Assembly: GCF_004006665.1 (NCBI RefSeq)
Contig: NZ_QOCL01000001.1
Coordinates: 372,001 to 436,000, forward strand
Direction of reading: 5' to 3'
DNA length: 64,000 bases
Source: Halobacteriovorax sp. HLS
Lineage (GTDB): Bacteria; Bdellovibrionota; Bacteriovoracia; Bacteriovoracales; Bacteriovoracaceae
The notes beneath the pieces were generated by a model, which had not been told where the DNA came from, made no database searches, and was given only the letters and a program-made list of their open reading frames with translations. Position 1 is the stretch's first letter; each line of letters opens with the position of its first letter. Below, piece after piece: positions 13,015 to 62,453 of the stretch. The translations under genes were made by a program, and so were the position numbers.

Positions 13015-13124
13015 TAAATCCTTAGACTTAACTCTCTTTCATAAAGATTTCTTCACTTTAATTTTAAGATTAAAGAAATCAGTTAAAATAGTCGATAAAT
13101 TCTCTATGATATAAAGAGGATTTG

Positions 13125-14531
13125 ATGAAGAGTAAATTACTCCCAAGAAAATTATCGATTTTTGCGCTTATAATTACTATCCAGTATGCGATTGGCAGTG
13201 TTGCACTACTTTATAAACTTTCTAACCAATTTGAAGAAGTTCATAAGTATCACTTCCCTATCTTAGAAATGAACGCAATAAACGTTCGACTAGGACAGTC
13301 CTTATCAAATACAACAAAGAACCTAATTTATGAATATTCTGAAGAAGGCTTTCAGGAATATATTTTTGAAAAGAACTCCCTACAGTTTAATATCTCAATG
13401 TATATTGCCGCACTCAAAGAAGCCGGAAAAGAAAATCTTATAAATGATCAACTCAATAGAGATAAATTAAATAAATTTGAAGAAAAGATAATTTTCCTGG
13501 CAAAGAATAAGAAAACCAAAGAAGCTTTAAAATTATTTAAAAGTAAAATCTATAGTGAATACAAAGAAAGCTATATTGATAATATTCAAATTGTTGCTGA
13601 AGAGCTAATTATCGATAGAGACAAACTACTGGAAAACAAGTCAAAGCTTTTTAAAATGGGAGTGGTTCTATCGGTCGTATTTTTTATCTTTCTAAGTCTA
13701 TTGTGGATTAAAGTTTATATGTCCTATAAGAAAAACTCTCTCGAAAAGTATAAGGCAGAACTAGATCTAGAAGTAGAACGTGTAAAGTCATCTCAAAATG
13801 CGAAGATGGCCAGCTTAGGAGAAATGGCAGCAGGCCTAGCTCATGAGATCAACAACCCTCTTGCGATTATTATGGGATACTCTAATAAATTAGATAAATT
13901 AATAGAGAGGAAAATGCTTAACGAAGAAAACTTATTAGACCTATCTAGTAAAATAAAAAAAACGACATTGAGAATCTCAAGTATCATTAAAGGACTTAAA
14001 GCATTTTCCAGAGATTCACAAGATGACCCACCAGAAAGAACATCTGTCATAGATATAATTAATGATACTCTTAGTTTTTGCCAAGAAAAATTTAAATACA
14101 ATGGTGTTCGCTTGGACGTTAATCATTCGAATAAAAATCTAGATGTACTAGTGAGACCTGTTGAGATTTCACAAGTTCTTCTTAATTTAATTAATAACTC
14201 ATTTGATGAAATTTCTGATCCAAAATATAACGAACCGTGGGTAAGAATTGATACAGAAGTTAGAGAAGATATGATCACTATAGTCGTAAGTGATTGCGGA
14301 AAAGGTATTACTGATGAGATCGCTCAAAAAATGTTTGAACCATTTTTTACGACTAAGGATGTAAATAAAGGAACAGGTTTAGGCCTTAGCATATCTCGTT
14401 CTATAATAGAGAAACATGGTGGTTCATTTATATTAAACAGAGATTTTGAGAATACCACTTTTGAAATAACTCTACCTAGATATACTCCAGAAGAATCCGA
14501 ACAAGACCAAAATAACTCAAGTGCTGCTTAA
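13125..14531 (+). CDS. Membrane sensor histidine kinase
   Basis: 468 residues from ATG 13125, with AGAGGA four bases upstream (a TTG at 13122 is in frame). One transmembrane helix near residues 10-30 and a second near 178-200 enclose a helical periplasmic domain of about 145 residues. A coiled coil leads to the H-box AAGLAHEINNPL with phospho-accepting His240. The ATPase boxes N (LLNLINNSFDE), G1 (DCGKGI), F and G2 (GTGLGLSISRS) are complete, so it should be active. No response regulator lies next to it. Its position after the porin and PBP-like protein suggests that it senses the same periplasmic ligand. Confidence 0.92.
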   Translation: MKSKLLPRKLSIFALIITIQYAIGSVALLYKLSNQFEEVHKYHFPILEMNAINVRLGQSLSNTTKNLIYEYSEEGFQEYIFEKNSLQFNISMYIAALKEAGKENLINDQLNRDKLNKFEEKIIFLAKNKKTKEALKLFKSKIYSEYKESYIDNIQIVAEELIIDRDKLLENKSKLFKMGVVLSVVFFIFLSLLWIKVYMSYKKNSLEKYKAELDLEVERVKSSQNAKMASLGEMAAGLAHEINNPLAIIMGYSNKLDKLIERKMLNEENLLDLSSKIKKTTLRISSIIKGLKAFSRDSQDDPPERTSVIDIINDTLSFCQEKFKYNGVRLDVNHSNKNLDVLVRPVEISQVLLNLINNSFDEISDPKYNEPWVRIDTEVREDMITIVVSDCGKGITDEIAQKMFEPFFTTKDVNKGTGLGLSISRSIIEKHGGSFILNRDFENTTFEITLPRYTPEESEQDQNNSSAA

Positions 14532-54649: not shown

Positions 54650-55864
54650 CTATGATTTCATGAATTCAACAATTTTACCTATTGCTTCGGCAAAGAAGTC
54701 CTTAGTTGGCACTAAGGAAATTCTAGCAGAATTAGGGATTCCAAAGTCACCTCCAGGAACAATAGCTACGCCATGCTTTTCAAGTAAGTCACTGCATATC
54801 TGAGTGGAGTAATCGGTCTTGTCATCAGGACTAGTTAGATACTTATCCATAATTGGAGCACCTGAAAAATCTACTAAAAAGTAAAAAGCTGATTTAGTCT
54901 GGTACCAACACTGCGCAAGTTTATTCTCTCTAAATTTGTCCTGAACAGTACGTGAATTTTCTCTCAAGTGGGCCTTGATTGGTTCAAGATAATCTCCAAT
55001 AAGATTAAAGTTGTACCCTTCTAAAGCTTTTTGAATCAGGCTATTTGCACCTGATGTAGTCTGTCCTTGTAATCTAGACATAGCAGAAATAAGGTCATTA
55101 GGAGCAATACAAAAACCTATCCTTAGCCCTGTTAAGGCCATATTCTTAGACACACCATCAATGATAATAGTCCTCTCAATAAGCTCTTTTTCATACTGAT
55201 AAAAGTAGGTTGGTTTAGGATCGAAGTAGCTAAGCTCATAGTAAATTTCGTCACTAATAATAATAATGTCTGGGTATTTGAGCATTAGACTAGCAAAGTC
55301 TCGCATCCATTTTTCACTATAGTGAACTCCTGAAGGATTGTTAGGACTGTTGATAATAATTGCTTTAGTATTCTTATTAATTGCGCTTTCAATATCTTCT
55401 AAAGATGGATGGAATTCGTCATAAATATTAGAAGCAACCGTTACGGGCTTTCCATCATAGAAACTAACCATCTCAGGATAAGAGACCCAGTAGGGAGCAG
55501 GAATAATCACTTCATCATCTTTATCAATTATTGAAGCAAAAACATTCGCTAGACTATGCTTACCACCATTACTCACAAGAACACTATGTGTATCAGAGGC
55601 TTTAACATCTCTAGACTCTTCAAAATAAGTAAGGACCTTCTCTCTCAAAGTCTTAAAACCTGCAACAGGAGAATATTGAAAACTATTTAGAAAAACTAAT
55701 TCTGTCCTAAGTGCTTCAGTAAATTCATGTCCTGGTCTAAAAGGTAGTTGTCCAGCTGTAAGATTCCACACCTGTTTTCCCTCTTTTTCCATTGCAACTG
55801 CTTGTGCATTAAGCTTCAAAGTTATACTTTCAGAAATAGTCGAAACTCTTTTACTTATTTTCAT
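54650..55864 (-). CDS. Class I pyridoxal-phosphate aminotransferase (aspartate aminotransferase-like)
   Basis: 404 residues. Fold-type I features: LTAGQLPF near the start, NGGKHSLANVF, IIPAPYWVSYPEMV, NSPNNPSG, IISDEIYYEL and the PLP lysine in GVSKNMALTGLRIGF. The C-terminal ARISLV with its carboxylate-binding Arg is present. It most resembles the Ib subgroup of aspartate aminotransferases, although prephenate or other substrates are possible. It starts 8 bases after coaD. Confidence 0.9.
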   Translation of the reverse strand: MKISKRVSTISESITLKLNAQAVAMEKEGKQVWNLTAGQLPFRPGHEFTEALRTELVFLNSFQYSPVAGFKTLREKVLTYFEESRDVKASDTHSVLVSNGGKHSLANVFASIIDKDDEVIIPAPYWVSYPEMVSFYDGKPVTVASNIYDEFHPSLEDIESAINKNTKAIIINSPNNPSGVHYSEKWMRDFASLMLKYPDIIIISDEIYYELSYFDPKPTYFYQYEKELIERTIIIDGVSKNMALTGLRIGFCIAPNDLISAMSRLQGQTTSGANSLIQKALEGYNFNLIGDYLEPIKAHLRENSRTVQDKFRENKLAQCWYQTKSAFYFLVDFSGAPIMDKYLTSPDDKTDYSTQICSDLLEKHGVAIVPGGDFGIPNSARISLVPTKDFFAEAIGKIVEFMKS

Positions 55865-55872
55865 TAAAATCC

Positions 55873-56346
55873 TTAATTATTTAAAAGCCATTTATAGATT
55901 GTTTCTGGTAAGAAGCTCTTAACATTACCCTTATGATTATAGACTTCTTTAACTAGAGAGGAAGAAACAAAGTAATTTTGTCCCTCGGTCATTAGAAAAA
56001 TAGTTTCAATTTCGGGGTAAAGTTTTTTGTTCATTGAGGCCATCTGGAACTCAAACTCAAAATCCCCCGTAGGTCTCAATCCTCTAATGATTGTATCAAT
56101 TCCATTATTTTTAGCGTAATCGACAAGTAGCCCACCCCAAGAATCAACTTTAACTTTCTTTTCAGATTTGAAGTGTTCACTGATCATTTCAAGTCTTTGT
56201 TCAATTGTAAAAAGTGGTTTCTTAGTCGGAGATATTGCGAGTAAAACAGTTACCTCATCAAATAGCGCGAGAGATCTTTTTAAGATATCATCGTGCCCTG
56301 TAGTAAATGGATCGAATGTTCCTGCGTAAACTGCTTTTCTAGTCAT
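55873..56346 (-). CDS. coaD: Phosphopantetheine adenylyltransferase
   Basis: 157 residues from ATG 56346 (GGAG six bases ahead); the longer frame adds nine residues unlike the family. It makes dephospho-CoA from phosphopantetheine and ATP. The nucleotidyl transferase motif TFDPFTTGHDD (TxGH), GLLVDYA, IIRGLRPTGDFEFE and the C-terminal SSSLVKEV (ISSSxVKE-type) are all present. Located between rsmD and the aminotransferase in one minus-strand run. Confidence 0.96.
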   Translation of the reverse strand: MTRKAVYAGTFDPFTTGHDDILKRSLALFDEVTVLLAISPTKKPLFTIEQRLEMISEHFKSEKKVKVDSWGGLLVDYAKNNGIDTIIRGLRPTGDFEFEFQMASMNKKLYPEIETIFLMTEGQNYFVSSSLVKEVYNHKGNVKSFLPETIYKWLLNN

Positions 56347-56409
56347 TGAATACTCCGTAATTGAATTTATCAATATAAAGAATATTCTATAGATAAAATG
56401 AATAATTGC

Positions 56410-56991
56410 CTAGCCATGTAAGAGAATAAAACTTGTTCCTTGAGAATAAATCTTTCTTGCATCAATCATCTCTTCTAATACTTTTTTCTTTATTCCTTTT
56501 TGCTCATCAGATTCAATCCAAATCTCTCCAGAAAAATTAGCATTCTTTAAAAGTTTAATCGATTCTTCATAGATATTATGTATTTCATATGGTGGATCTA
56601 TAAAAATAATAACCGACTCTTTTTCCTCTGCAGAGTAATTAGAGTAGCTCACTAGAAATGATTCAAGCCATTTTAATCCACAACTCTTTACAAGATTAAT
56701 TTCACCAAGAGAGTCTGAGCTTCTTTTTGATTTGTTACAATTGTCCTTAAGCAGACCAAATACCTTGCTATTTTTCTCAACAATTGTCGCGCTTTCAGCT
56801 CCTCTAGATAAGGCCTCCAATGCAATTGCACCTGATCCACCACATATATCAACAAAGTGAAAACCACTCATATCTTGGCGAGCATCAAAGATTTTTCTTC
56901 TTAACATTACTGAAGTTGGGCGAATAAGATCACCCTTAGGAACTAAAAGGGTTTGACCTTTAATCAAACCCCCTAATATTTTTATAGACAT
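56410..56991 (-). CDS. rsmD: 16S rRNA (guanine966-N2)-methyltransferase
   Basis: 193 residues. SAM-binding FVDICGGSGAIALEALSRGA, VEKNSKV and the catalytic IDPPYEI match RsmD, as does the IRPTSVMLRRKIF entry (RPTxxxxRExxF type; here with Lys instead of Glu). It modifies the 30S subunit late in assembly. The rsmD-coaD order is common in bacteria. Confidence 0.93.
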   Translation of the reverse strand: MSIKILGGLIKGQTLLVPKGDLIRPTSVMLRRKIFDARQDMSGFHFVDICGGSGAIALEALSRGAESATIVEKNSKVFGLLKDNCNKSKRSSDSLGEINLVKSCGLKWLESFLVSYSNYSAEEKESVIIFIDPPYEIHNIYEESIKLLKNANFSGEIWIESDEQKGIKKKVLEEMIDARKIYSQGTSFILLHG

Positions 56992-57010: not shown

Positions 57011-57679
57011 TTATGCGGCCTTCTTTTTAGACTCTTGTGATGATGTGGTCAATGGAATATTAAAATTAACACCACCTTCCATTGTCACTGTACAACCATT
57101 TGACTCTGTTATCTTAATTTCAACACCACCCATTTCGACAACAAGACCTGAATCTCCATCGACTTTTAGAGTTGCAGTTTCAGAACCAATTTTAAAATTA
57201 AGATTTAAATCCATTGAACCTGTCGCAGAAAAGTCCATATTTGCGCCAGATGACGCTACTTTATTTTCCGAAACTGGTAGCGACACAACATTTGAAACTT
57301 CATCAATAGATTCAGTTTCTACAGTTTCAGATACCACTTCTAGCGACTCTGTAACTTCTGGCTGCTCTACTTCAGCTTGCGGTGCTTCATTAACTTCTTG
57401 GGCAACAACTTCTTCCTGCATCGCTTCAACCTCAGAGACTTCTTCGCTTGCAGCAGTTGTCATTTCACCAGCAATTGACTCAACTTCTTTATCAATTTCA
57501 TTTTGTAGTGAACTTGTAGGAGCTTCACTTAGGGCCAAATCTTCTGGAGACTTATCACCTTCGTCAACAAACTCTTTTTCAAGACTTTCAATTTCATTCA
57601 TTATATCTTCTAGCTCTGTGTCATTAAAGCTTTGTTCTATAGTATCTGTCATTGCTTCTTCTAGTTTATTTTCGTCCAT
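57011..57679 (-). CDS. Acidic low-complexity protein with C-terminal beta domain
   Basis: 222 residues. The first 150 are extremely acidic and low in complexity (runs of Glu, Val, Ser, Ala with EVVAQEV- and VEQPEV-like patterns). The last 60 form a repetitive beta pattern (MDLNLNFKIG, ATLKVDGDSG, VEMGGVEIKI, TVTMEGGVNFNIP). No signal peptide and no family that I recognise. AGGAG precedes the ATG. It is the first gene of the run with rsmD, 19 bases apart. The long opposite-strand ORF here is a shadow of its skewed composition. Confidence 0.7.
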   Translation of the reverse strand: MDENKLEEAMTDTIEQSFNDTELEDIMNEIESLEKEFVDEGDKSPEDLALSEAPTSSLQNEIDKEVESIAGEMTTAASEEVSEVEAMQEEVVAQEVNEAPQAEVEQPEVTESLEVVSETVETESIDEVSNVVSLPVSENKVASSGANMDFSATGSMDLNLNFKIGSETATLKVDGDSGLVVEMGGVEIKITESNGCTVTMEGGVNFNIPLTTSSQESKKKAA

Positions 57680-57945
57680 GTTTAGTCTCCTACTGGCCCC
57701 ATATATAACGCGGCTATATATTTACCTCCAGCTTATCGCCCCCAAATGTAAGAAACTTTAACATTTTCAAAAAAAGGCAATAAATACCTATAGTTACCTA
57801 CTAAAATGATCAATTAGCTGCTATAAAAACCGTCAAATAATGTGACAATTTAATAGTTTTAAGGTAGAAAGCTCTACCCACAATTTTAATGAGAAACAAT
57901 TAAAAATATGCACTACAAAAGAGCAAAAAATATTCGGTGTAAAAG

Positions 57946-60768
57946 TTGAATCAAGAACAGTTTAAAGCATTGTCTTGGCTTAATTCATCCCCACTTAATA
58001 AAGGTTTAACTTCAAACCAAGAGGACTCCCTGCAAGGAAGTCTCGACCTTGAATTGCCTTTTCAAGAAAAAGAAGCCAAGCCTTCATTTACACCGCAAAA
58101 CTTTCTCGTCCCAGGTTGGAAGGGTGAAGGGCTACTTTCTAGGCCTGCACTAATTATCAAAAAGTCTCATAAAGAACTTATTGAAGACGCAAAAAATCAA
58201 TTTAGCGATATTATTAATAGAAATAGCTCTTACCAGCAGTCTGTATTTAATGAATTCCAGAATTTTCTAGAATATAAGAAAGTTAAGAATCATTTCCTAG
58301 ATAGCTCTTCAAAATTTTGTAAATATATTTCTGCCCAGATTAACGAAGATATCGATGTAAAAAACTTTATCGAAGTCTACGCCTTTAGATCAGTTTCAAT
58401 TTACATTTATAAAGCTAAGTTTCTTCTCACTCTTGCTAAGAAATTAGAAATCAGTTTAGAGAAAATAGACCTTCATAATCCTAACTCCTTTTTAAGTAGA
58501 ATATTTAAAACTGGTTCTAGCACAGCTTTAAACTGTGAATCTTTTAAAATTAATCAGTATAGCTGGTATAGGCCTTCATCATCTACTAGAGATAGTGTTA
58601 TTGACTTAAAGAATAACCTTCTTTCTGTCTCTACAACTGAAATGATTAAGATTGCGACTTATGACTTGAATGAGCTTGAGTATTCTCATTCTTATTCTCA
58701 TAAAGCATTTGGTTTATTCGTGAACAATTTAATTATTCACTTCCCTAAATGGATTGAAAATGAAAAGGACACACCGACTACTTCATTTGAGAAGCTATTT
58801 AATAAAAAAGCAAATTCGAGACTAGAAACACTACTTACGAAATTTGAAGGAAATCACCTTTCTTCATTAGGGCTATCCCACTGGATGGCCCAAGAAAATA
58901 ATGTTGTAGGTAGTTGGGATCAGGTTATATGTCCTGACTTTAACGGGTGTGAGTTTTCACATGGAATGTTTACTAGAATTTGCCAAGAAATACACTTCTT
59001 ATCTTTTTTAGTTAATCTCGCCTCATACCAAGGCCATGAAGTTCTGACTCTTATTTGTAGTGTTATGAATGATAAGAAAAAGAAGTCAGCAACAGCAGAA
59101 GATGGACAGATGTCATTTCTTGGAGGAGAGCTAAAAGACTCTCCACAGGTATTTGATCGAATTGTACTTAATCTAACAACATTACCAAAGAAGAACCCTC
59201 ACCATTACTTCCTTGCTCAGGTTAACAATCAACTTGCAGAGTTAAGTAAAGATGGCTATCTCTATGTTTTTTCTAATCAAAAACTATTTGTTCCGTCTCA
59301 TAGTGAAAAGGTTGAACAATTATTGAAGAGCTACAAAGTTGAAGCAATCTTTAACTTTGACCAACTCCAGGGACGTGGAGAAATCTCTAACTACCTATAT
59401 GTTTTAAGAAAAAGAAGAGTTTCACAAGAGCAGCTCTTCTTAGACCCTATTAAATCTTCTGAAAAAGAATCATGCCTCAGCTTCAGATGGAGTGGACATC
59501 TAGAAATTTTCAAACAATTTGGCTCACTTGTTGATGAATTTGAAACCTTTATGGCAACTAGATCTCATAACTCCACTCCTGTATTTCAGGCCGAGCCAGA
59601 TGAGCATACTTCTTTTGAGTTTCATCAGGATGCCATTTTAGATGGTCTGCTACTTAGTTCAACTTCTAATGATACAAGTAATATTACTCACCCTAGCTTT
59701 TTTAAGAATTTAACAAAGTCCTGTGTTCCTTTTGATAACTTCTTTCAAATTGAAACACTTTCAAGTGACTACAATTCTTCAAAATCTAGCTCCCTGACTT
59801 CAGACATGCTAGGAATCTCGGTTAGAAATGAAGATAGATTTCCGCTTCTCCTCATTGTTAACTACACAAACTCTTCTGATATTAAGCTCGAGCTTACAAC
59901 TTCAGATGTTTACCAGGCCAAGTTAGAGCAATACGGAATGGCATACTTCCAATATTTTGGAATCATTCCAAAAAGAAGCGATATCAATCTAAATGTTTTT
60001 AGAGAGTATTTTAATACTCAATTTGGAAAGCAAATTATTCAACTTTCTTTAAATGGCGGACATACAAAAATTAAATCGAAGCTTAGATCACTACTAATCC
60101 CAAGCTTCTTTTTAGAAACGAACCAGATTCCAGAAAATATAATTACATCTTTTGGTCTTTTTAATTTAAATTCATCAGAAATTTTGAATTCTCACCCAGA
60201 AGATCTCAGCAGTAAATTTGATAAGATTCTTCCGTTCCTTAGTTCTGTTGAAAAAAGATTTCCTTGGCACACGATGGGAATGCTTTCTCATTTTAAATTA
60301 AACCTACAAAATTCTCTTGATAAGCTTGAACAAACGCCTAGTGATTTATTTAAGAATCCATTTATTATTGATCAGCTTATAAAGACTCCTTCGGTTTCAA
60401 TTTACCCAAGGTCTAATGATATTTTTATAAATACTCCACTCTCAAACACTAGTGATATTCATAAACCTCTGACGGCGATTGAATCTCACTTTGATGGAGA
60501 AAACTCTTATGTAAAGCTGCTCTCTAATGAAAATACCATTATTGAGCTCTACACTGACCAGTTGGTTGCCCAATTTGCAAAGTTTATTCTAGACTCGGCA
60601 ATAGGCATGCCAATTTCCTCAATACTGCAAAACCTAAAGATACCTTCGGCTGCAGACCTTAAAAGTATTGTCTCAAACCACTCTGAGCTAAAAGAATCGA
60701 TATCTAATATCGAGTCTATTTGTAATGCCAAAATACAAACAATTTTAACAAGCAAGATAAATTCATAG
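57946..60768 (+). CDS. DNA N6-methyltransferase-like protein lacking the catalytic NPPF motif
   Basis: 940 residues. An N-terminal helical part (1-300) comes before a region laid out like HsdM/type IIG enzymes. CPDFNGCEFS (329-338) is in the motif I place. FDRIVLNLTT follows (Asn409; NLTT where NPPF/Y is expected). YFLAQVNNQLAELSKDGYL and then ISNYLYVLRKR come next, as in the family. A TRD-like C-terminal part ends with LNGGHTKIKSKLR and LLIPSFF. The catalytic loop seems lost, so methylation is unlikely; DNA binding may remain. It starts at TTG 57946. A 13-codon ORF (ATG 57908) ends in a TGA that overlaps this TTG. The ChaN-like gene follows after 53 bases. Confidence 0.65.
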   Translation: MNQEQFKALSWLNSSPLNKGLTSNQEDSLQGSLDLELPFQEKEAKPSFTPQNFLVPGWKGEGLLSRPALIIKKSHKELIEDAKNQFSDIINRNSSYQQSVFNEFQNFLEYKKVKNHFLDSSSKFCKYISAQINEDIDVKNFIEVYAFRSVSIYIYKAKFLLTLAKKLEISLEKIDLHNPNSFLSRIFKTGSSTALNCESFKINQYSWYRPSSSTRDSVIDLKNNLLSVSTTEMIKIATYDLNELEYSHSYSHKAFGLFVNNLIIHFPKWIENEKDTPTTSFEKLFNKKANSRLETLLTKFEGNHLSSLGLSHWMAQENNVVGSWDQVICPDFNGCEFSHGMFTRICQEIHFLSFLVNLASYQGHEVLTLICSVMNDKKKKSATAEDGQMSFLGGELKDSPQVFDRIVLNLTTLPKKNPHHYFLAQVNNQLAELSKDGYLYVFSNQKLFVPSHSEKVEQLLKSYKVEAIFNFDQLQGRGEISNYLYVLRKRRVSQEQLFLDPIKSSEKESCLSFRWSGHLEIFKQFGSLVDEFETFMATRSHNSTPVFQAEPDEHTSFEFHQDAILDGLLLSSTSNDTSNITHPSFFKNLTKSCVPFDNFFQIETLSSDYNSSKSSSLTSDMLGISVRNEDRFPLLLIVNYTNSSDIKLELTTSDVYQAKLEQYGMAYFQYFGIIPKRSDINLNVFREYFNTQFGKQIIQLSLNGGHTKIKSKLRSLLIPSFFLETNQIPENIITSFGLFNLNSSEILNSHPEDLSSKFDKILPFLSSVEKRFPWHTMGMLSHFKLNLQNSLDKLEQTPSDLFKNPFIIDQLIKTPSVSIYPRSNDIFINTPLSNTSDIHKPLTAIESHFDGENSYVKLLSNENTIIELYTDQLVAQFAKFILDSAIGMPISSILQNLKIPSAADLKSIVSNHSELKESISNIESICNAKIQTILTSKINS

Positions 60769-60821: not shown

Positions 60822-62453
60822 ATGAAAACAGATATCACTAAAATTCGAAAGAACATATATAGCTATATGAAGAAGAAGGCCCTTTCTTTAGAAGGAACTC
60901 CTTCGAAAGAGTTTCTATCTTATCAAAGAATACAGAAGAGGCACTCAAATAGAGATTTTCTCGTCTCAAACTTCCAAAGCCTGATTAAATCAATTAAGAA
61001 GTCTAAACTCATTTATCTAGGAGACTTTCACTCTCTAGATCAAAGTTCGAGAAACCTACACAGAATTATCCGGGCACTTACTGATTCAAAAGACCAATTA
61101 GTTTTAGGAGTGGAGTTTGTTCATATTAAACATCAACACCATATCGATCGTTTTCTAGCAGGACACTTAACTGAGATTGAATTCCTTGAAAATGTAAACT
61201 ATTACGAATCGTGGAGATTTCCATGGAATCAATACAGAGTTTTCTTCGATCTTGCTAAAGAAAGAGGTTATAAGATTCTAGCTCTAAACTCTAAAGGATC
61301 ATTAAGCGAAAGAGATACTCGGGCTTCTGAAATCATCGTAAATTACCTCAGTGCTTTTCCATACTCTAAACTCTTAGTTATGTTCGGTGAGTATCACATT
61401 GTTCCTACAAAGCTACCTAAAGAAGTTTCAAAGAAGGCCAGAAAAGAATATCGACAAACGATCATTCATCAAAACCTTGACGAGGTCTACTGGAAACTTG
61501 AGCAAACCAATATGGGCCGCAAGAAAACACAAGTTATTCAGTTTGAGGATAACGAGTATTCAATTCAATCCTCTGCTCCATGGGTTAAGTACGAAAGTAT
61601 GATTTACTGGTATGAAAATTTATTAGAAGATCCTGAATTTGATATTCACGACTATGTAATGTCTTCTGGTCTGAAAAGTTTTAATGAGAATGCATCGGAT
61701 ACTTACCTCTTTCTAATTGAAAAGATGCTTTCTGGACTTAATCTGAAACTAGATAGATCTGCTTTAGAAGATTTCAATCTCTACGATCATCATAAGATGA
61801 GCTTTATACTTAAGAGACTTGAAAAAATCACAAAACCGACTGTTGGAAAATTCTACAAAGACCTGGTAATCAAAGGTAAGAGCTTTAAAGTTCCCAATTC
61901 AAATGATTTCTATTGCTCAAATTATTCAATGAATAGACTGAGCTACTTAGGTGGTATACACCTATGGCACTACCTCAGAAAGTTTGGCAATAATGAAACA
62001 GTAAAGATTCTCTCATTTCCTTCACAAGAAAAGAGATTTTCATTTCTAGTTTACCAATTCTGCTTTGCCTATTTTTGCTCAAAAATGATTAATCCATACA
62101 GAAAGTGCGATCTCTATGCAGACCTTTTTGAAAAATCTAAAGCGAAGACCTCTAAAGACTCAGACGTCTTTAAGTCTTGTTTAGAACTAATTGAACATGA
62201 TACGAGAAAGATTAAATTATCACTTACCCTTAAGGGTCAAAGTTTAACTAGCATATATAAAATATCAAAGAGAATTGGATATATGCTTGGAGATATACTC
62301 TTTGATCAACACTTTGAAAAAGAATCTAAATCACTTGAGAAAATTTTCAATATTTTACATAAAGAAGAAATGAATGAAGAGAATTATCTAAAGCTTTTAA
62401 AGTTACTCCTACCTAAGAGAAAATATAAAAGCTTTAGAAAGAGATTTTTTTAA
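60822..62453 (+). CDS. ChaN/Tiki-superfamily protein with long C-terminal extension
   Basis: 543 residues. Residues about 55-210 match the ChaN heme-binding/Tiki/EreA fold: LIYLGDFHS (GExH position, here GDFH), LVLGVEFVHIKHQHHIDRFL, WNQYRVFFDLAKERGYKILALN and LLVMFGEYHI. The acidic and His residues of the site are mostly kept. The remaining 330 residues are helical and not recognised. No signal peptide or lipobox is present, unlike classical ChaN lipoproteins, so the protein should be cytoplasmic. AAAGGT precedes the ATG. It lies downstream of the methyltransferase-like gene and its stop codon abuts that of the kinase gene. Confidence 0.7.
   Translation: MKTDITKIRKNIYSYMKKKALSLEGTPSKEFLSYQRIQKRHSNRDFLVSNFQSLIKSIKKSKLIYLGDFHSLDQSSRNLHRIIRALTDSKDQLVLGVEFVHIKHQHHIDRFLAGHLTEIEFLENVNYYESWRFPWNQYRVFFDLAKERGYKILALNSKGSLSERDTRASEIIVNYLSAFPYSKLLVMFGEYHIVPTKLPKEVSKKARKEYRQTIIHQNLDEVYWKLEQTNMGRKKTQVIQFEDNEYSIQSSAPWVKYESMIYWYENLLEDPEFDIHDYVMSSGLKSFNENASDTYLFLIEKMLSGLNLKLDRSALEDFNLYDHHKMSFILKRLEKITKPTVGKFYKDLVIKGKSFKVPNSNDFYCSNYSMNRLSYLGGIHLWHYLRKFGNNETVKILSFPSQEKRFSFLVYQFCFAYFCSKMINPYRKCDLYADLFEKSKAKTSKDSDVFKSCLELIEHDTRKIKLSLTLKGQSLTSIYKISKRIGYMLGDILFDQHFEKESKSLEKIFNILHKEEMNEENYLKLLKLLLPKRKYKSFRKRFF

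Follow-up and report, generated by a model that had tools for sequence, protein, structure and literature searches.

Eukaryotes offer well-known examples of dead enzymes that still have a function. METTL14 and DNMT3L are inactive methyltransferase folds kept under selection, each working as obligate partner to an enzyme known to be active; METTL14 supports METTL3 as its inactive half. In bacteria we are not aware of a DNA methyltransferase that has been dead for as long as the one considered here appears to have been and is still a single-copy core gene across a predator lineage. Target-recognition domains (TRDs) of restriction-modification systems are usually hypervariable. The closest described systems are M.BseCI (7qw8) and CamA (7lnj), type I HsdM (EcoR124I 7bto, PacII 7vru, 2okc) as well as BREX PglX and MmeI. 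In the gamma group of N6-adenine DNA methyltransferases the elements are described in the order motif I - motif IV - TRD (PMC8187626), and the same source presents CamA as an orphan encoded by a core-genome gene. Our literature search found no paper on the protein analyzed below; subscription papers and preprints were outside its scope.

The window is the whole stretch of 64,000 nucleotides of Halobacteriovorax sp. HLS that was analyzed; its order, referred to below, is the Bacteriovoracales. The gene is located at 57946..60768 on the plus strand as an unbroken frame of 940 codons with a TTG start, and it is present as a single copy in its own genome. According to the predicted structure (AlphaFold with 77 sequences, pLDDT 81.2, pTM 0.60) the protein has an N-terminal helical domain (residues 64–240, 58135..58665, +) in place of the HsdM N-terminal domain. 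This domain contains a YSWY signature (residues 205–208, 58558..58569, +), of which S206 and W207 are invariant in alignment A4. A Rossmann-like methyltransferase core follows (residues 241–490, 58666..59415, +), supported by the predicted model and by structure matches; it harbors the places of the former SAM-binding motif I (residues 296–316, 58831..58893, +) and the former catalytic motif IV (residues 403–420, 59152..59205, +). Model and structure alignment further delimit a TRD-like region (residues 583–726, 59692..60123, +) and a C-terminal domain (residues 727–940, 60124..60765, +) that ends in a long helix (902–939). Its stretch 815–929 is also recognised outside the order.

The predicted fold is that of a gamma-group N6-adenine DNA methyltransferase with a TRD, the elements following the order motif I - motif IV - TRD. 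The top Foldseek match of the model is M.BseCI (7qw7, E 1.8e-6), and VIA-align likewise gives M.BseCI as best solved match (Z 13.8, rmsd 5.4, 384 aligned, residues 253–940). CamA is also among the structure matches. Like these two enzymes the model shows a core followed by a TRD and aligns over most of its length (about 245–940); it differs in lacking NPP[FY] and motif I, in its extra N-terminal helical domain and in sequence, with 9–11% identity. HsdM chains share the N-terminal helical domain and the core and align by VIA from about residue 59–64 to 576, whereas alignments with MmeI and BREX PglX are near full-length (63/64–940, Z 9.7–10.0, rmsd 13–15 Å). In contrast to HsdM, PglX and MmeI, the locus contains no HsdS/HsdR or BREX genes, the catalytic motifs are lost and the distribution is not that of a defence gene. 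The window protein matches no PADLOC family at E≤1; for L168, a distant orthologue, there are matches to MTase_II (5.1e-21) and PglX (1.3e-6).

At the sequence level the window protein gave no match in Pfam, in NCBIfam or in PDB by phmmer, the order profile gave none in PDB by hmmsearch, and there was no methyltransferase among the 25 families listed for 50 order members. In other families the order profile does pick up ORFs of 899–1025 aa, which it matches collinearly (E 1.6e-5 to 5.7e-8). When members of this enlarged family were compared with Pfam, Eco57I (best 4.2e-16), N6_Mtase (2.2e-9) and MmeI_Mtase (4.8e-7) were each matched by 4 of the 30 members and TaqI_C by 5 of them (best 0.0012). 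This transitive route from the order profile via far ORFs to Pfam agrees with the ancestry given by the predicted fold. Two profile comparisons by hhalign count against it: between the order profile and the f8-type profile the probability was weak (28.9%, E 5.9e-4), and with the motif-I-bearing group the match was local only (residues 69–223, 94.2%, E 1.2e-7). The comparison of A2 with A4 was not counted as evidence because sequences are common to both sides. A preliminary description of this DNA had proposed an intact frame of methyltransferase ancestry with a TRD in the C-terminal part, to be recognised by methyltransferase profiles. Frame, ancestry and TRD-like region were borne out; the profile match exists for some members of the enlarged family and not for the window protein itself.

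Where motif IV should be located the window protein reads L408-N409-L410-T411-T412, and at the place of motif I only G302 is left of the glycines. Both the NLTT reading and the degraded motif I had already been noted in the preliminary description. The losses extend over the entire protein family: motif IV ([DNS]PP[FYW]) is found at its proper place in none of 145 distinct family proteins, with one off-place match in L166. As a control we used 30 loci matching Eco57I in the same relatives, 28 of them non-family and two family members. NPP[FYW] is present in all 28 non-family loci and absent from both family members, while the [YF]SW signature shows the opposite pattern (2/2 versus 0/28) and is detected by regular expression in 141 of the 145 family proteins. 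Motif I (DPxxGxG) is absent from the window protein and from every order member, and is retained at the right place in five of the 145 proteins (L168, L210, L211, L195 and L166, the last one reading NPIAGAG); matches of the regular expression in L167 and L201 fall elsewhere in the protein and were excluded. Even these five read GCPPE, GCPPE, SAPPE, CCPPE and HFPDH, respectively, at the place of motif IV. The families f4 and f5 retain motif I together with an acidic residue after GC, whereas f8 and f12 carry F-x-PTLRDG where motif I would be. The simplest order of events, by parsimony and without a rooted tree, is that motif IV was lost first, since its loss is common to every family member seen, and motif I later in most lineages. 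As neither motif I nor motif IV is present, the window protein should not be classified with the methyltransferases.

The dead catalytic stretch (residues 400–490) is the most conserved region of A2, with a mean column identity of 0.626. Conservation reaches 99% for N409, P414 and K415 and 100% for N417, so that on sequence grounds the loop appears to be rebuilt in the window's order as N-L-x-x-x-P-K-x-N-P, a new invariant signature; the pattern continues with H-H. The former SAM site now reads K-F-x-G-x-x-L-x-S-L-x-L-S-H-W-x-A-Q, with G302, S307, H312, W313, A315 and Q316 conserved to 94–100% in A2, G302 being invariant. The TRD-like region has a mean column identity of 0.518: it is not hypervariable and about as conserved as the rest of the protein.

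Next to the gene we found rsmD (56410..56991, −; TIGR00095 E 4.9e-25, which is below the curated cut-off, and synteny), coaD (55873..56373, −; TIGR01510 E 2.7e-54 and synteny) and a PLP-dependent aminotransferase gene (54650..55864, −; by synteny). The full neighbor set further comprises phoH, a kinase-like gene and a ChaN-like (Cofac_haem_bdg) gene at 60822..62453 on the plus strand (PF04187 E 2.4e-21). Downstream, the ChaN-like gene is the usual neighbor not only in the order but also in several further families. Neither a restriction nor a specificity subunit is present at the locus, in line with the preliminary description. Genes of the divergent rsmD/coaD/aminotransferase block lie upstream in 36 of 38 order loci; of the two exceptions one is rearranged and one is cut by the fetched stretch. 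Outside the order rsmD and/or coaD are close by in divergent orientation at all 26 loci examined.

Of the 129 genomes of the order 125 carry the gene, among them all 73 of good quality (completeness of 90% or more, contamination of 5% or less); the four genomes without it are 56–88% complete. It thus resembles CamA in occurring in all good-quality genomes of a lineage without a cognate nuclease. With a profile widened by six distant ORFs, 186 of the 368 genomes of the phylum gave a match at E≤0.001. Of these, 61 lie outside the window's family and carry 12 family labels, six of the 61 having supplied rows to the profile. Divergent orthologues (L168, L200, L165 and others) show about 12–17% identity to the window protein, a full-length collinear match, the YSW signature and the same rsmD/coaD neighborhood; at this level of identity orthology was settled by the shared gene place. 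The dN/dS values of 0.009 and 0.034 indicate strongly purifying selection despite the lost catalytic motifs; they come from the only two of 56 pairs with usable dS, the other 54 being saturated. Order-wide presence, synteny and dN/dS led us to reject a recent pseudogene or a restriction-modification remnant, and they support the earlier proposal that the gene is kept for another job. Although the active site was dismantled long ago, many lineages of the phylum of predatory bacteria around Bdellovibrio have retained the gene at the same position on the chromosome, and an important role other than methylation is therefore very probable. Two genomes contain two full-length family copies each, G113 with a contamination of 9% and G148 with 2%; in G148 a true duplication of the gene is possible.

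Searching the genomes of f6, f2, f3, f7, f11, f14 and f15 with the profile gave no match at E≤0.01. In f6, f11, f14 and f15 the rsmD/coaD/aminotransferase block is present without the gene at nine loci (L221, L223, L224, L226, L228, L231–L234), where it runs into sigma-54 regulator and/or kinase genes. Several families thus retain the same neighborhood without the gene, which indicates that it is not universally needed; the copy in these families may also be divergent beyond detection or relocated. The syntenic place without the gene and the missing profile match also led us to reject a copy in the putatively Bdellovibrio-like f6 genomes. Bd1029 of Bdellovibrio, described as a class I SAM-dependent methyltransferase (PMC11656739), is therefore taken as another gene. 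Other candidates were rejected as well. Two weak f9 matches are ORFs with an intact NPPY and represent ordinary methyltransferases, and a third weak match, in G178, is a frame of 213 aa. An ORF of 843/845 aa adjoining rsmD in f3, which we take to be SecA-like, has no profile match. In the genome of the window itself we noticed two further genes of this kind. L151 (G000:C14:615965-616906) appears to be an intact type I M gene, carrying DPTCGSGG and NPPF, with what is presumably an S-like gene behind it; L152/L265 (G000:C9) is an open frame of 1560 aa with EPAMGSG and NPPW that encodes a large methyltransferase-like protein.

Between rsmD and the pseudo-methyltransferase gene a divergent gene is located at 57011..57679 on the minus strand. 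It encodes an acidic protein of 222 aa with a net charge of −43. In its model a helix at the N-terminus is followed by an acidic linker of low confidence and, at the C-terminus, by a beta domain that is well predicted. Foldseek gave nothing at E≤0.001, and the best VIA match of the beta domain, the CPAP G-box with Z 7.7, is below trust level. Homologues of the acidic gene adjoin the pseudo-methyltransferase gene in other families (11 loci with E 4e-19 to 2e-3, one at 0.063), whereas its profile found none in 18 loci lacking that gene. Genome-wide, 17 of 25 gene-positive genomes contain it, whereas among the 18 gene-negative ones no match reached E<0.01 (one genome gave 0.014); many of the 25 supplied profile rows, G013, G017, G046, G093 and G364 did not. 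Counting against a partnership, 8 of the 25 gene-positive genomes yielded no acidic gene. Nor did f4, f5, f10 and f13, which include motif-I-retaining families.

Upstream of the acidic gene a block common to five genomes of the genus reads as a sigma-28 (FliA)-like site, TAAAG-N17-CGATA at 57734..57760 on the minus strand. Of 83 distinct order regions 27 contain the pattern TAAAG-N16/17-CGATA, as compared to 0.11 on average and 2 at most in 100 shuffles; regions identical over the last 150 bases were counted once and near relatives remain in the 83. On the other strand it was found in none, and outside the order in 0 of 11 regions. In Bdellovibrio TTAAG-N16-CCGATA is reported for 92 of 140 attack-phase promoters (PMC3627812). 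The 27 sites together with this consensus suggest that attack-phase expression in this order probably applies to the acidic gene and not to the pseudo-methyltransferase gene itself. Against this stand the 56 of 83 order regions from which the site is missing, and for the pair as a whole the fact that it faces the acidic gene and not the pseudo-methyltransferase gene. The promoter scan for the latter gave one site, under the shuffle mean. Directly 5’ of it, at about 57860–57930, a second block is conserved in the five genus genomes (AAAGC..TACCCAC ... ATGCACTAC), without a match in any promoter scan. In the 64 kb there are two sigma-28-like sites where 0.33 are expected; the other one is located at 13071–13097 (+), just upstream of an ORF at 13122–14531 (+), presumably encoding a histidine kinase.

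With moderate confidence we consider the protein to be an ancient, non-catalytic pseudo-methyltransferase, most likely a sequence-specific DNA-binding scaffold acting with the acidic partner. The ancestor of much of the phylum would have possessed a gamma-group N6-adenine DNA methyltransferase with N-terminal helical domain, Rossmann core and C-terminal TRD. Catalytic motif IV would have disappeared first and SAM-binding motif I later in most lineages, being left only in few families. From then on the protein would have been retained without catalysis, its gene being inherited vertically as a single copy next to rsmD/coaD and its former active site rebuilt with lineage-specific invariant residues. 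TRD and DNA cleft may still bind one fixed chromosomal DNA sequence or structure, such sequence-specific binding being plausible, and the protein could serve as scaffold or regulator together with the divergently encoded acidic protein. In the predatory lineage sigma-28 would probably turn on the acidic partner in the motile attack phase. The pTM of 0.60 is a point against this explanation, and the net charges of the TRD-like region (+2) and the core (−1) argue against a strongly basic DNA surface. This modest positive charge and the 8 of 25 genomes without the acidic gene are among the points that weigh most heavily.

The low net positive charge and the divergent acidic partner with its sigma-28-like promoters would also fit a protein-protein hub in a motility or attack-phase structure that has given up nucleic acid contact; however, the TRD-like region is still conserved (0.518), as is the complete architecture of the gamma group, and we regard such a hub as unlikely. 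By analogy with METTL14, the protein may instead be the inactive half of a two-protein methyltransferase, with a separate adenine methyltransferase as the active enzyme, for which it would recognise the DNA or which it would activate. A dead catalytic site in a conserved fold with a TRD would be expected of such a subunit, and the genome does encode intact adenine methyltransferases, e.g. the type I M/S pair on G000:C14 (DPTCGSGG, NPPF). Unlike for METTL14 and DNMT3L, no active enzyme partner was found among the locus genes, nor a universal one in the Eco57I-type class in relatives: the locus contains no active DNA methyltransferase gene, and matches of the Eco57I type are present in only 31 of the 59 relatives searched, which makes this class no universal partner. 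We consider this possibility unlikely.

Even less should be expected of residual methyl transfer, by an altered motif or to RNA or protein. It could draw on the kept fold, on the 99% conservation of N409, the first residue of motif IV, and on the intact motif I and acidic residue after GC in f4 and f5; motif I is gone in the window's order, however, and the PP-[FY] that serves the flipped adenine is missing from 145 of 145 family proteins, with GCPPE, CCPPE, SAPPE or HFPDH in its stead even where motif I persists. Last, the family shares its ancestry with the methyltransferases of restriction-modification and BREX systems, and the preliminary description had suggested a defence decoy. A decoy or a degraded restriction-modification gene is very improbable in view of the vertical inheritance in a fixed housekeeping neighborhood, the low dN/dS values, the missing PADLOC hit of the window protein and a TRD-like region about as conserved as the rest. 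Taken as a whole the earlier interpretation is partly supported, and the conservation and selection in relatives that it pointed to are found; beyond its view lie the ancient loss shared across much of the phylum, the new loop signature and the conserved divergent acidic gene.

The natural series of proteins with motif I present and then absent offers a way to ask how a DNA-modifying enzyme becomes something else, and the two divergent genes are a concrete pair for genetics in Halobacteriovorax or Bacteriovorax. The family also illustrates that methyltransferase-like annotations can conceal non-methylating proteins. Our most far-reaching proposal, which we put forward tentatively, is that this is an undescribed phylum-level bacterial pseudo-DNA-methyltransferase that lost its catalytic and cofactor sites step by step, has pockets of invariant residues specific to each lineage in their place, and would form a sequence-specific chromosomal DNA-binding system with a co-conserved, sigma-28-driven acidic partner. 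If true, predatory bacteria and their relatives would have made an architectural or regulatory protein out of an epigenetic enzyme.
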